A stretch of DNA of 64,000 nucleotides from Pseudarthrobacter sp. fls2-241-R2A-127. Lineage in GTDB: Bacteria; Actinomycetota; Actinomycetes; Actinomycetales; Micrococcaceae. Location: assembly GCF_030209355.1 (NCBI RefSeq), contig NZ_JARVSF010000012.1, positions 124,001 through 188,000 on the forward strand. Direction: 5' to 3'. The position numbers were made by a program, and so were the translations under genes. A model generated the notes under the pieces. The model was given only the letters and a program-made list of their open reading frames with translations. It was not told the DNA's origin and ran no database searches. Shown piece after piece: positions 51,583 through 55,406 of the stretch; the stretch's first letter is position 1; the number at the start of each line of letters is the position of its first letter.

Positions 51583-54213
51583 CTAGCGCCTGCCCTGGTG
51601 TGCGTCCAGGAGCCGGGCGCAGCGGATGAAGCCCAGGTGCGAGTAGGCCTGCGGGTGGTTGCCGAGGTGGGTTTCGGTGCCCGGATCGTATTCTTCCGGG
51701 AGCAGTCCGGTGGGGCCGAAGAGGTTCACCAGCTGGTCGAACAGGTCCCAGGCCTCGTCGATGCGGCCCACGGCCACGTAGGCCTCGATCAGCCAGGTGG
51801 TGCAGATGTGGAACCCGCCCTCCAGGCCCGGCAGGCCGTCGTCGTACCGGTAACGGAACACGGTGGGGCCCACCCGCAGTTCCCGTTCGACGGCGGTGAC
51901 GGTGTCCAGGAAGCGCTGGTCGGTGACCTCCAGCAGGCCGGAGAGTCCGATGTGCAGGACGGCGGCGTCAAGGTCCGGGCTGTCGTAGGCCACGGTGTAG
52001 GACCTGGCCGATTCGTCCCAGCCCTCGCGGAGCACCTCATCGCGGATGGTTGCCGCCGTGGGCGCCCAGGCCGGGTCCGGCTGGCGGCCGTGGCGCGCTG
52101 CCGTCCGCAGTGCCCGGTCCAGGGTGACCCAGCACATCACTTTCGAGTAGACGTGGTGGCGGGCTGCGCGCCGGGCCTCCCAGATCCCGTGGTCCGGTTC
52201 GTGCCAGCGGGCCAGGACGGCCGATGCCATCTGCACCATCAGGTCCCAGTGGGCGTCGTCCAGCGAGCCCTCACGCCCGCTGAGCGCGTGGATCAGTTCG
52301 GCGACGGGCCCAAAGACGTCCAGCTGGACCTGGTGGTCGGCCGCATTGCCGATCCGCACCGGGCGGGACCCCGCGTACCCCGGCAGGCTGTCGACGACGG
52401 CCTCCGTGGAGAGCGGTGCGCCGGTTACCGAGTACAGGGGGTGCAGCCATTCGGGGCCCGGGGCGTGTTCGAGGATGCGGCCCAGCCAGTCCAGGAAGCC
52501 CGCGGCCTCGGCAGTGGAACCCAGGTCCACCAGCGCGTTGACTGTCATGGAGCCATCGCGCAGCCAGCAGTACCGGTAGTCCCAGTTCCGTGTCCCGCCG
52601 ATGCCCTCGGGCAGGGACGTGGTGGGTGCGGCGAGGACGGCGCCCGTGGGCTGGTGCACCAGGGCACGGAGTACCAGCGCGGATCGTCGCACCAGGGAGG
52701 GTTTGACGGAGGGCAGGTCGAGGTCCTGCACCCACTGCCGCGAGTGCAGGGCAACCGCGGCCCGACGCTCCGTTTCCCCGCCGGGATCCGCGGGCTGCGG
52801 TTCGGTATCGCCGCAGCGCAGGTTCAACACCACGGGGCCGTCCTGCAGGTTCACCGACGCCGTGGCCGTGGCGTGGATGCCGTCCGAGGCGATGCTGAAG
52901 GTCACCCCCGGCGCGAACAGGATGATTGGCTCGGACGTGCCCACCACATGCAGTTCCTCGCCGCGGGCTTCCATGCTGAACGGGGCGTTGGCGTAGTCCG
53001 GCCGGGGCGCGAAGGTGATCCTCGCGGCGCCGTGGCCGGAGAGCACCCGCACCAGGCTGGTGATGCCGTCCGGGGCGGGCTCCAGGTAGTCGGTTACCGT
53101 CACGTCCGCCCACCGGGTTTCGACGATCATGGTGCTGTCCACGTACCGTTGGCCCAGCACCTGGGAGGCTTTGACCGGTTCCACGGAGAAGTGGCCGGCA
53201 GCGTCGCCACCCAGGATGTGGGCAAACAGGGATCCGGAGTCCGGCAGCGGGTGGCTCATCCAGCAGATCTTCGCGTCCGGGGTCAGCAGCGCGGTGGAGG
53301 AGCCGTTGCCGATCATCGAGTGCCGTTCCAGGCCGACGGCGTCCTCCCCGAACAGCCAGGCCCGGCGCAGTTCGAAGAGGAGGGCCAGGACGCGGGCGAA
53401 GGCTTCGGGGTCCCGGACGCGGTGGGCGGCGGCGGTCTCCCCGGGCCCGACCCGCAGCCCCAGGTCCGGTCCGCGGAGGGTGGCGATGGCCAGTTCGTCG
53501 CTGTAGGCGTCACCGGCGAACATGGCGGCGCTGGCGCCGAGCCGGGAGCGGAGGCTTTCCAGTGCTTCCGCCTTGGACGGCTCCACCACGGAGAGGTCCA
53601 GCACGGAGCCGTCCACGATGAAGAACAGGCCATGGAGGCGGGCGATTTCCCGGGCGGTTTCCGTGACCGATTCGACCACCTCCGGCGGCGCGGGCCGGGT
53701 GTGGACGGAAACGGCCACGGGCTTGCGTTCGATCCAGATGCCCTCTTGGAAGCCCACGGCCTCGTTGAGCGCGGCGTTGACCTTGAGCAGGACGGATTCG
53801 GTGGCCAGGCTCTGGGCATGCGCGAAGCCCATGTCCGACTCCGCACCGTGCGACCCGATCAGGTGGACCTCCACGGGCAGCCGGGACACCGCCGCCAGGT
53901 CGCGCAGGGACCGGCCGGAAATGATCGCCGCATGCGTGTTGGGCAAGGCTGCCAGGGCGCGGAGTGCGATGGCCGCGTTGCCCAGGGGCAGGATCTCCGT
54001 GGAGATTCCTTCGGCCTCGCAGAGGGTCCCGCCGTAGTTGCAGGCCACCAAAAGGGAGGGCACGCGGGCCAGTACTTTGAGTTCGGCCAGCAGTGCGGGG
54101 GTGAGCCCGTTGTCCGCGGCATCCGACTGGATGAAGGCGCGGAGCATTTCCAGCGGGAGCGAACGGGTGAGCAGCGCGGATTCCGCCACGCTTTGGTTCA
54201 ACGGCGTAGGCAT
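51583..54213 (-). CDS. pseudo-trehalose-phosphatase domain fused to GH15 trehalase/glucoamylase-like domain
   Basis: 876 residues. Residues 45-270 follow the HAD trehalose-6-phosphate phosphatase pattern: motif II Ser99 (IISGRS), motif III Lys214, motif IV GDAYSDE (Asp235, Asp239). But motif I, normally DFDGT, reads NYGGT at 59-63: the nucleophile Asp is Asn59 and the acid/base Asp is Gly61. Residues 290-870 are a GH15 alpha/alpha barrel with GGTRNWDYRYCWLRD, the GIWEARR acid and PEEYDPGTETHLGNHPQAYSHL (Glu841 base) intact. GH15 relatives in mycobacteria hydrolyse trehalose. Hence probably an active trehalase or glucoamylase tethered to a non-catalytic, possibly T6P-sensing domain. Shine-Dalgarno AAGGGG. 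Confidence 0.86.
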   Translation of the reverse strand: MPTPLNQSVAESALLTRSLPLEMLRAFIQSDAADNGLTPALLAELKVLARVPSLLVACNYGGTLCEAEGISTEILPLGNAAIALRALAALPNTHAAIISGRSLRDLAAVSRLPVEVHLIGSHGAESDMGFAHAQSLATESVLLKVNAALNEAVGFQEGIWIERKPVAVSVHTRPAPPEVVESVTETAREIARLHGLFFIVDGSVLDLSVVEPSKAEALESLRSRLGASAAMFAGDAYSDELAIATLRGPDLGLRVGPGETAAAHRVRDPEAFARVLALLFELRRAWLFGEDAVGLERHSMIGNGSSTALLTPDAKICWMSHPLPDSGSLFAHILGGDAAGHFSVEPVKASQVLGQRYVDSTMIVETRWADVTVTDYLEPAPDGITSLVRVLSGHGAARITFAPRPDYANAPFSMEARGEELHVVGTSEPIILFAPGVTFSIASDGIHATATASVNLQDGPVVLNLRCGDTEPQPADPGGETERRAAVALHSRQWVQDLDLPSVKPSLVRRSALVLRALVHQPTGAVLAAPTTSLPEGIGGTRNWDYRYCWLRDGSMTVNALVDLGSTAEAAGFLDWLGRILEHAPGPEWLHPLYSVTGAPLSTEAVVDSLPGYAGSRPVRIGNAADHQVQLDVFGPVAELIHALSGREGSLDDAHWDLMVQMASAVLARWHEPDHGIWEARRAARHHVYSKVMCWVTLDRALRTAARHGRQPDPAWAPTAATIRDEVLREGWDESARSYTVAYDSPDLDAAVLHIGLSGLLEVTDQRFLDTVTAVERELRVGPTVFRYRYDDGLPGLEGGFHICTTWLIEAYVAVGRIDEAWDLFDQLVNLFGPTGLLPEEYDPGTETHLGNHPQAYSHLGFIRCARLLDAHQGRR

Positions 54214-54338
54214 CCAGGTACCCCTTCGAGGCAGAACCAGGCCGGGAACTCAGCCGCTGGATCGCCTGCGGACTACCGGTTGGTGCCCCGCCCGGAAATC
54301 CCAGCAATCCCTGACGGGGCAGTATCCATCTTCAGCCG

Positions 54339-54353
54339 CGGGGGTTTCCCCCG
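54339..54353. other. short GC hairpin in the 197-bp gap
   Basis: CGGGGG-TTT-CCCCCG perfect hairpin downstream of the minus-strand LLM gene and upstream of the trehalase fusion. No T-run; could end LLM transcripts weakly. The gap shows no gene. Confidence 0.3.
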
Positions 54354-54410
54354 AAAGTCGCTTTTATTGCGTCCGTGTAAAAGCAGCGCACCGGCCCGGC
54401 GGCGAAAGCC

Positions 54411-55406
54411 TCAGGCGCCCACCCGGGCCAGTCCGGCGGCTTCGGCCAGCAACTCGACGGAGCGCAGCCGCGCCTCGGTACCGGTGCTCTGGTGCGCCAC
54501 GATGAGTTCGTCGGCGTCGGCGTGCTTGCCGAAATCAGCCAGGTAGTCCACCACGGCGTCCGGCGTGCCCACGGCGGAGTAGCGCATCATCTGGGCGACG
54601 TGCTGGCCCTGCGGGGAGTCCAGGACCATGTCCGCTTCGTCGTCGGTGAACTCGCGGCCGCCGCCGAAGAACAGCGAGACGCGTGCGCGCTTGGTGGCCT
54701 GGAACATGGCTTGGGCCTCGGACGCCGAGTCGGCGGCGATCACGTTGACGCCGGCGATCACGTGCGGCGCGTCGAGCTGGGCTGAGGGCTTGAACTCGCG
54801 GCGGTAGATGGCCACGGCGTCCTGCAGGGCGGCCGGGGCAAAGTGCGAGGCGAACGCGTACGGGAGGCCCAGCTGCGCGGCGAGCCGGGCGCCAAACAGG
54901 GATGATCCCAGGATGTAGAGCGGAACGTTGGTCCCCTTGCCCGGGGTGGCCTCGACGCCCTGGATGCGGGTGGGGCCGGTCAGGTAGCCCTGCAGTTCCA
55001 GGACATCCTGCGGGAAGCTGTCCGCGGACATCGGGTCCCGGCGCAGGGCGCGCATGGTGTTCTGGTCACTGCCGGGTGCCCGCCCCAGGCCCAGGTCGAT
55101 CCGGCCCGGGTGAAGGGTTTCCAGGGTGCCGAACTGTTCGGCGATGGTCAGCGGCGAGTGGTTGGGCAGCATGATGCCGCCGGCGCCCAGCCGGATGCTT
55201 TCGGTGTGCGCGGCCACGTGGGCAATCAGCACGCTGGTGGCGGAGGAGGCGATGGAGGACATGTTGTGGTGCTCCGCGTACCAGACCCGCCGGTACCCCA
55301 GCTTCTCGGCGCTTTGCGCCATGGCCACGCTGCCCGCGAAACTCTCCGACGCCGTCTGGCCTTTGCCGATGGTTGCCAGGTCAAGGATGGAGAGGGGAAG
55401 AGTCAC
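54411..55406 (-). CDS. LLM-class flavin-dependent oxidoreductase
   Basis: 331 residues of the bacterial luciferase-like superfamily (MsnO8 group): [74 protein letters not shown], and [17 protein letters not shown]. Uses FMN or F420 to hydroxylate or reduce an unknown small molecule. GTG start. Divergent from the aldo-keto reductase gene. Confidence 0.88.

Follow-up and report, generated by a model that had tools for sequence, protein, structure and literature searches.

A predicted pseudo-phosphatase domain is retained on a trehalase-like GH15 protein in the Arthrobacter group

A fusion gene with a degenerate phosphatase domain

The window analysed (the whole stretch, 64,000 nucleotides of Pseudarthrobacter sp. 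fls2-241-R2A-127, contig NZ_JARVSF010000012.1) carries on its minus strand a gene in which a trehalose-phosphatase-like domain of the HAD type is fused to a trehalase-like protein of family GH15. The features of the gene are:

51583..54213, minus strand: whole gene, putative pseudo-OtsB (HAD) domain, trehalase-like N-domain and GH15 barrel; 876 amino acids, ATG start (ORF call and Pfam)
53353..54081, minus strand: HAD (trehalose-phosphatase-like) domain, residues 45-287 (PF02358, TIGR00685, Foldseek)
54025..54039, minus strand: degenerate motif I, N59-Y60-G61-G62-T63 (57/57 NYGGT-clade proteins)
53911..53919, minus strand: motif II, S99-G-R101, kept (alignment)
53590..53826, minus strand: cap domain, approximately residues 130-208, including E162, K164, H171, R173 and D206 (alignment)
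53572..53574, minus strand: motif III, K214, kept (alignment)
53494..53514, minus strand: motif IV, G234-D235-A236-x-x-D239-E240, second Asp of GDD lost (alignment)
52753..53373, minus strand: TREH_N, trehalase-like N-terminal domain, residues 281-487 (Pfam PF19291, 297 bits)
51616..52698, minus strand: GH15 (alpha/alpha)6 barrel, residues 506-866 (PF00723, 190 bits; VIA-align)
52177..52179, minus strand: E679 (GIWE), predicted general acid, kept in 167/167 fusions
51694..51696, minus strand: E840 (PEEYD), predicted general base, kept in 167/167 fusions

A plus strand ORF of 982 amino acids (51598-54546) overlaps the fusion gene and was taken for a high-GC antisense frame; that the fusion ORF is instead the artefact was rejected, as homology spans its 876 amino acids. 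An explanation of the fusion's role from its neighbourhood was likewise rejected: over 23 loci compared (flanks of 1.5-4 kb) the most frequent neighbour was a luciferase-like gene (11/23), and no trehalose gene was found among the Pfam-scanned neighbours of the fusion in the window.

The initial annotation had motif I as NYGGT, with both aspartates replaced (Asn59 and Gly61), and Ser99, Lys214, Asp235 and Asp239 as kept; all of this could be read directly in the sequence, and a further loss had been overlooked, as D236 of the GDD is Ala in this protein. The D-x-D-x-T of trehalose-6-phosphate (T6P) phosphatases is thus absent at motif I, and S99, K214, D235 and D239 supply the S/T, K and GDxxxD of motifs II, III and IV. 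The domain matches Pfam Trehalose_PPase (PF02358) over residues 60-242 with 47.6 bits (cut-off 27), and scores 58.5 bits against the TIGR00685 T6P phosphatase (T6PP) profile, under the cut-off of 68.05, which was passed by 7/7 intact fusions scored (98-133 bits), by one of the nine NYGGT proteins scored (L044, 70.9 bits) and not by the one DYDGA protein scored. Its predicted model (pLDDT 82) has the HAD core and C2B cap fold, and Foldseek comparison with solved T6PPs gave best TM-scores, by target length, of 0.80 (1u02) and 0.78 (6upb), with other T6PPs at 0.49-0.74.

Judged from its sequence, the fused domain has lost its predicted nucleophile (D59N), its general acid/base (D61G) and D236, and is presumably without phosphatase activity. 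Continued catalysis, either of another phosphoryl reaction or of weak T6P hydrolysis by way of other residues, would accord with the remaining K214, D235, D239 and S99, with the L044 score, and with a genome paper that lists a very probable NYGGT copy as EC 3.1.3.12 (PMC8171050), but we give this hardly any credence with nucleophile and general acid/base both gone, as replacing either motif-I Asp of the Brugia T6PP left no detectable activity (PMC4081830).

The altered motif is fixed among the fusions of the genus. A DNA pattern for V-A-C-N-Y-G-G was found in 120 of 150 genomes of the genus (a reversed control pattern in 2) and the same 120 carry the fusion by homology search, 115 in one piece and 5 in pieces. 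The remaining 30 genomes reach, among the matches listed, only the level of stand-alone GH15 proteins (best E 1e-99 to 7e-91), two of them being weaker (best E 2e-38 and 1e-36). A single match to the canonical motif pattern was found in each of 143/150 genomes, and in the window's genome this match belongs to the otsB directly behind otsA. A sequencing error or lone mutation was rejected, the motif being present in all 120 fusion-bearing genomes.

Intact and degenerate forms of the fusion

The initial annotation knew of no description of a sensor-enzyme fusion of this kind. The layout as such is frequent in Actinomycetes, and the intact version often serves as the OtsB of an otsA operon. We collected 167 distinct fusions, of which 99 are intact (D-x-D in 99/99), 57 have NYGGT and 11, forming a Nocardiopsis clade, have DYDGA; these counts leave out 9 exact duplicates, 8 stand-alone GH15 loci, L166 and the later-found L194-L203, and the sample is skewed towards close relatives because searches return the best matches first. 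L166 has motif I DYDGC with GDD. By record titles the intact fusions span the Actinomycetes (Saccharopolyspora, Amycolatopsis, Nocardia, Rhodococcus, Micromonospora, Brevibacterium), and they were also found in some Acidimicrobiia and Planctomycetota MAGs; a lineage-specific invention was rejected, given how widespread they are. In 36 of 80 named loci otsA lies directly upstream of the fusion, and a single OtsA-OtsB-GH15 frame was found twice.

Intact fusions share the layout of the window protein, are 41-57% identical to it and conserve the GH15 Glu pair, but unlike it they retain the motifs D-x-D-G-[TC] and GDDxxD. When motif I was aligned across the homologues, as had been suggested for the initial annotation, it was intact in 99/167, yet the window copy is not alone, since the mutation is clade-wide: all 57 NYGGT forms fall in one clade (Arthrobacter and kin; SH-aLRT 100) nested inside the intact forms, in a quick tree with SH-aLRT support only and without the exact duplicates L142, L123 and L144. 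In the tree the degeneration of the Nocardiopsis clade is independent. The same domain of the same fusion has degenerated in these 11 proteins, but they keep the motif-I Asps, with Thr changed to Ala, and have lost the motif-IV Asps (GGxxE) and the cap.

Apart from the fusion itself, all 20 tested genomes with a degenerate copy carry another OtsB-type domain, and 13 of 28 genomes with an intact fusion had no other such domain, a comparison of 48 genomes that covers two or three independent events and is a pattern rather than a test; G979 and G435 (2/48) were placed by kinship and not by a motif I reading, and the extra domains (beyond the window's genome) were counted as presence, irrespective of motif or otsA adjacency. 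Redundancy alone does not force loss, because the intact fusions of a Brevibacterium-like genus coexist with a second OtsB-type domain in 10/10 genomes. One genome also holds a broken second copy of the fusion (L196).

The GH15 half

The claim that the GH15 acid and base are kept stood up, E679 and E840 being present here and the pair in 167/167 fusions; we take E679 to be the acid and E840 the base from alignment and GH15 motifs. The (alpha/alpha)6 barrel with a Glu acid and Glu base of family GH15, and the TREH_N domain of GH15 alpha,alpha-trehalases, are both present. PDB sequence searches with this part returned mostly fortuitous pentatricopeptide-repeat matches near residues 806-830, and VIA-align gave Z 37 to isomaltose glucohydrolase (5z3c/5z3a), the closest solved GH15 protein after a dextran dextrinase. 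The window protein falls under the NCBIfam cut-offs for TreH1 and TreH2 (346 vs 820 and 292 vs 1000 bits), and the fusions scored against these archaeal trehalase models reached 250-353 bits; because the models are archaeal, this shortfall does not exclude trehalase activity. The GH15 part is a putative trehalase. That it is some other enzyme, such as another alpha-glucosidase, and that the HAD domain senses something besides T6P, would suit the sub-cut-off matches and the likeness to isomaltose glucohydrolase, but we consider it improbable in view of TREH_N, of otsA directly upstream in those 36 named loci, of the OtsA-OtsB-GH15 single frames and of the published Ramlibacter cluster of otsB, a candidate GH15 trehalase and otsA, itself a prediction (PMC3164672).

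Selection on the domain and loss of its cap

In the NYGGT clade dN/dS was 0.084 for the HAD core and 0.074 for GH15, the two core parts separately giving 0.05 and 0.13 (rough values, by Nei-Gojobori on GC-rich pairs), and the core-to-GH15 distance ratio was 1.30; the intact sister group gave 1.77 and the remaining intact forms 1.07. The HAD core thus combines lost catalytic residues with purifying selection over speciation, as expected of a pseudo-enzyme, and the cap evolves fast. Between the 99 intact and 55 capped NYGGT proteins, residues 45-289 hold 4 fixed differences (D59N, D61G, D236A, G201D) and 46 conserved positions common to both, and residues 290-869 hold one (I295L) and 149; if only the 22 proteins of the sister group are compared, the fixed HAD differences number 10, not 4.

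S99, K164, H171, D206, K214, D235 and D239 are kept in 55/55 capped NYGGT proteins, R173 in 54/55 and E162 in 50/55 (Val in the other 5); predicted ligand contacts are therefore kept in 50-55 of the 55 and are absent from cap-less proteins. E123, K125 and E167, contact residues of the Salmonella T6PP, align with E162, K164 and D206. Of 79 cap positions, 12 are invariant in the capped NYGGT proteins, and G201D with a changed GK loop may alter the pocket. In the NYGGT clade the cap also outpaces the N-terminal tail, which is probably disordered (cap vs tail: distance ratio to GH15 2.81 vs 2.41, dN/dS 0.19 vs 0.14), a hint of relaxed constraint because this does not hold in the two intact groups (ratios 3.28 vs 3.40; 2.16 vs 2.70).

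The cap is deleted in two NYGGT proteins (L067 and L068; genus code g85) and in 11/11 DYDGA proteins of the Nocardiopsis clade (including L101-L109), with HAD core and GH15 kept in both lineages. In the predicted model of cap-less L101 the core is an ordered set of alternating strands and helices (block pLDDT ~66-90), apart from a disordered loop (129-144) where the cap would sit. A T6P sensor as the general function of the domain is weakened because two lineages deleted the cap yet kept core and GH15; these 13 proteins speak against a universal sensor.

Such deletions, the fast cap, the broken copy L196 and the occurrence of degenerate forms only alongside another OtsB-type domain (20/20 genomes) could be those of a relic, relaxed after a second OtsB appeared and on its way to loss without present function. 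We hold this to be very unlikely: the core parts (dN/dS 0.05 and 0.13) are set against 0.074 for GH15, N59 and G61 show no drift within the clade, and the motif is kept in every fusion-bearing genome of the genus.

At 42 HAD positions conservation across the 167 fusions reaches 95% or more, and among the conserved positions unlike the genome's own OtsB (the one OtsB compared) 6/11 lie at 105-115, where the segment RDLAxxSRLPxE beside motif II is a candidate interface. The domain may accordingly be only a scaffold, against which GH15/TREH_N folds or assembles with no T6P binding and the cap residues leftover or structural, as the loss of the cap with the core kept in two lineages, the ordered L101 core, the NYGGT cap outpacing the tail and the conserved positions would fit; this is a real possibility, if short of probable, and it leaves unexplained why K164, H171, D206, K214, D235 and D239 are kept in 55/55 capped NYGGT proteins.

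Discussion

The initial proposal of a pseudo-phosphatase domain fused to GH15 is supported at the level of sequence, with the putative dead domain conserved across the clade and both predicted GH15 catalytic Glu kept. Most likely the domain gave up phosphatase catalysis and was retained in a trehalase for ligand binding, as a scaffold, or both. Our tentative main reading, to which we give a probability of roughly 0.44, is that T6P binding was retained and the binding state is passed to GH15.

The tree suggests as ancestral state an intact protein with two activities, often encoded behind otsA, whose OtsB half would have dephosphorylated T6P and whose GH15 half could have hydrolysed trehalose. 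In this reading the phosphatase job of the Arthrobacter group falls to a separate OtsB, and the fused domain then lost D59, D61 and D236 with most phosphate and sugar contacts retained. Asn in place of the HAD nucleophile Asp is the classical way to make a substrate trap, which makes it probable that the capped domain still binds T6P (or phosphate) without turnover. Its binding state would be relayed to the GH15 trehalase, and this putative allosteric control would couple trehalose breakdown to the T6P level. A more specific proposal, in which the protein of the Arthrobacter clade would act as a natural substrate trap and T6P receptor, its Mg-T6P-binding domain switching the attached trehalase, is doubtful.

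TreR repressors are T6P-responsive proteins of bacteria. In Arthrobacter A3, T6P stands at ~2 mM and falls by ~40% under salt stress, and T6P promotes assembly of Arthrobacter OtsA (PMC5685639). Eukaryotic TPS proteins (AtTPS1-4, yeast Tps3 and Tsl1) likewise bear a TPP domain without catalytic residues on a trehalose-pathway protein, and Tps3 and Tsl1 are described as regulatory subunits (PMC1769515), but these domains are fused to TPS (GT20) and not to a GH15 hydrolase. Mycobacterial OtsB1 (Rv2006) resembles the window protein in having a TPP domain on a large protein, but is 1327 amino acids long. Its partner domain is GH65-like, not GH15. For mycobacteria, T6PP activity is reported for OtsB2 only (PMC11046441). 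GH15 trehalases (the M. smegmatis enzyme, archaeal TreH1/TreH2) share the TREH_N and GH15 layout, and the archaeal TreH1 model matches the window protein over residues 298-864. We know of no HAD domain in these enzymes.

Among the full-text literature results viewed, we found no trehalase with its own T6P-binding pseudo-phosphatase; the window protein is a concrete candidate for one and its intact sister proteins are matched controls. For annotation, a phosphatase that the fusion gene does not provide may be attributed to genomes of the group, and the intact fusions raise the question of why a trehalose-making enzyme bears a trehalase-like domain on one chain. The results suggest that the putatively dead domain, kept by selection in the Arthrobacter group, now senses the phosphorylated sugar or serves to hold the partner enzyme together. 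If the receptor reading is true, the pool of T6P, the precursor of trehalose, would set whether the sugar is degraded or spared, which would be the bacterial analogue of the Tps3/Tsl1 logic in yeast, and the intact fusions and OtsA-OtsB-GH15 single chains would represent the ancestral machine for synthesis and breakdown.

Domain structure of the window protein

The fusion gene encodes a trehalose-phosphatase (OtsB-type, HAD) domain joined to a trehalase-like domain and a GH15 barrel:

51583-54213, minus strand: fusion gene, an ORF of 876 aa
Residues 60-242 of the window protein: trehalose-phosphatase domain
Residues 281-487: trehalase-like N-domain (TREH_N)
Residues 506-866: GH15 barrel

Motif I reads N59-Y-G61-G-T and S99, K214, D235 and D239 are kept, as the initial annotation had it in calling both motif-I aspartates replaced and the other four residues present; D236 has also become alanine. 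The protein scores 58.5 bits against the NCBI curated trehalose-6-phosphate phosphatase (T6PP) model, below its cut-off of 68.05. A canonical otsB (DFDGT, 278 aa) lies directly behind otsA on another contig of this genome, and the fused domain is 36% identical to that otsB product over 260 columns. The genome has five GH15 hits besides the fusion, one of which (L038) contains an internal stop codon.

AlphaFold models were obtained for the window protein (pLDDT 82, pTM 0.71) and for L101, a fusion lacking the cap (pLDDT 80, pTM 0.72), in which the core is ordered and a disordered loop occupies the former cap site. Foldseek matches included GH15 enzymes and solved T6PPs, and residues 501-871 aligned by VIA-align to a GH15 isomaltose glucohydrolase with Z 37. 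Conservation across the 167 fusions reaches 95% or more at 42 HAD positions, of which 11 differ in the genome's own OtsB (the one OtsB compared), six of them at 105-115 beside motif II; this segment is a candidate contact with GH15.

Distribution of the fusion

The fusion is present in 120 of 150 genus genomes (unbroken in 115, split into pieces in 5), and the V-A-C-N-Y-G-G pattern was found in those very 120. The canonical V-A-x-D-[FY]-D-G-T pattern occurs once each in 143 of the 150, and was absent at the fusion in the five genomes compared (G000, G042, G094, G080, G147). In two genus genomes an additional, diverged NYGGT fusion (L194 and L195, 77 and 74% identical) has GDG rather than GDA at motif IV, and another genome of the genus has a broken second copy (L196) matching in three frames with stops inside, the breaks falling near residues 36 and 796. 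More fusions were recovered by searching 245 genomes of the family, 297 of the order and 394 of the class, with identity down to 44% among the matches listed. A scan of named genomes produced 592 matches, and the best 80 included Arthrobacter, Paenarthrobacter, Saccharopolyspora, Nocardia, Rhodococcus, Micromonospora, Brevibacterium and Nocardiopsis, along with Acidimicrobiia and Planctomycetota MAGs. The fusion of a record titled Glycomyces fuscus (L182) falls inside the Nocardiopsis clade and that of a Candidatus Melainabacteria contig (L125) among rows with Pseudonocardiales titles; these genomes are possibly mislabelled or misbinned.

The phosphatase motifs have degenerated at least twice

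The 167 distinct fusion proteins fall into three states. The intact form (D-x-D-G-[TC], GDDxxD, full cap) accounts for 99 of them. Another 57 carry NYGGT, of which 55 retain the cap together with GDAxxD and two, L067 and L068, have lost the cap. The remaining 11, from the Nocardiopsis clade, combine DYDGA with GGxxE and are likewise cap-less. Intact homologues do exist, but the window copy is not alone in being mutated, since the whole NYGGT clade shares the change; the initial annotation had named a lone mutated copy among intact relatives as a refutation. The predicted GH15 acid and base, which the same annotation had described as kept, are conserved as E679/E840 in all 167.

A quick tree, with SH-aLRT as its only branch support, was built from the TREH_N-GH15 region by itself and had 86 rows, made up of 78 fusions and 8 stand-alone GH15 proteins. 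In it, all 17 NYGGT rows form one clade (SH-aLRT 100) adjoining the intact Brevibacterium-like clade (SH-aLRT 100), and the 9 DYDGA rows form a separate clade (SH-aLRT 100) among intact Pseudonocardiales-titled rows. Among the fusions, the branches lying deepest in the tree carry intact forms. With separate NYGGT and DYDGA clades amid intact forms, the motifs have therefore degenerated at least twice, through different changes, and the cap has been deleted at least twice, this domain having degenerated a second time, independently, in the Nocardiopsis clade. Members of that clade (L101-L109, L178, L179, L182) have lost the cap and the motif-IV aspartates and retain DYDG.

Selection on the degenerate domain

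The HAD core of the capped NYGGT clade is not decaying: over 300 close pairs, dN/dS was about 0.084 in the core and 0.074 in GH15, with higher values in the cap (residues ~130-208; 0.19) and the N-terminal tail (0.14), and the core-to-GH15 distance ratio was 1.30, compared with 1.77 in intact Brevibacterium-like and 1.07 in other intact fusions. The NYGGT cap evolves somewhat faster than the tail (2.81 vs 2.41 times GH15), whereas in neither intact group is it faster (3.28 vs 3.40 and 2.16 vs 2.70), which hints at relaxed constraint on the NYGGT cap.

When the 99 intact and 55 capped NYGGT proteins were compared over HAD residues 45-289, 50 positions were conserved within both sets and four of these were fixed differently: D59N and D61G (the motif-I aspartates), G201D, and D236A, the second aspartate of GDD, which is not among the Mg ligands named in passages on the Brugia T6PP structure (PMC4081830). 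When only the 22 proteins of the sister group served as the intact reference, ten positions were fixed differently and 66 were shared; residues 290-869, compared with all intact proteins, gave one fixed difference (I295L) and 149 shared positions. There has been a fixed, selected loss of the motif-I residues in a fusion whose GH15 pair is intact. The fast-evolving cap has 79 positions, 12 of which are invariant in the NYGGT clade, K164, H171 and D206 among them, with R173 in 54/55 and E162 in 50/55. By alignment, E162, K164 and D206 correspond to E123, K125 and E167 of Salmonella T6PP, which we take to be sugar contacts.

A second OtsB and the otsA context

Forty-eight genomes were searched with the T6PP family, 28 of them with an intact fusion (G979 and G435 placed by kinship). 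A further T6PP-family domain outside the fusion was found in 11/11 NYGGT and 9/9 DYDGA genomes; among the 28, 13 had no extra domain and 13 had one (all 10 Brevibacterium-like and 3 others), while in the other 2 such domains sat only on ORFs 1387-1457 aa long. As all 20 degenerate genomes but also 13 of 28 intact ones have it, a second OtsB looks necessary but not sufficient for loss, judged over no more than two or three independent events. The top scores of this search were domains on ORFs of ~1400 aa in G683 and G980, perhaps, at a guess, OtsB1/Rv2006-like; in mycobacteria, T6PP activity is reported for OtsB2 only, not OtsB1 (PMC11046441).

In many cases an otsA operon has the intact fusion as its OtsB. 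Among the best 80 named loci, otsA lay directly upstream on the same strand at 36, none of them among the 5 NYGGT or 3 DYDGA loci, and in the genome searches it turned up at 8 of 105 loci, every one with an intact fusion. A Ramlibacter gene cluster made up of otsB, a candidate GH15 trehalase and otsA has been described (PMC3164672). Two same-class genomes (2.6 and 1.5 Mb) encode OtsA, intact OtsB and GH15 in one stop-free frame, so that a single polypeptide combines trehalose synthesis with a trehalase-like domain:

L199:245-4261, plus strand: OtsA-OtsB-GH15 single reading frame (1339 aa)
L200:1216-5169, plus strand: OtsA-OtsB-GH15 single reading frame (1318 aa)

Possible role of the degenerate domain

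A full-text literature search, with most subscription papers beyond its reach, found no account of a dead TPP domain fused to GH15. In the sources found, GH15 trehalases are reviewed in PMC10969515, plant and yeast TPS proteins have TPP domains without catalytic residues (PMC1769515), and a gene at 943180-945807 in Arthrobacter PAMC25564 stands in a GH15 list as trehalose-6-phosphate phosphatase, EC 3.1.3.12 (PMC8171050). An NYGGT fusion at G047:C1:943180-945792 agrees in coordinates, and therefore this gene is very probably that fusion, G047 being inferred to be PAMC25564.

In Brugia T6PP, substitution of either motif-I aspartate left no detectable activity and the cap lysine change K334A lowered kcat 400-fold (PMC4081830). 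The capped NYGGT domain may bind trehalose-6-phosphate (T6P) without turnover and would then act on the GH15 trehalase, a sensor reading to which we give a probability of roughly 0.44. That the HAD domain is purely a scaffold seems a little less probable; the absence of the cap from 13 proteins and its rapid evolution favour this, at least in those cases, and count against a universal T6P sensor. For T6P sensing a physiological reason exists, since in Arthrobacter A3 T6P stands at ~2 mM, salt stress lowers it by ~40%, and depleting it experimentally alters morphology (PMC5685639).
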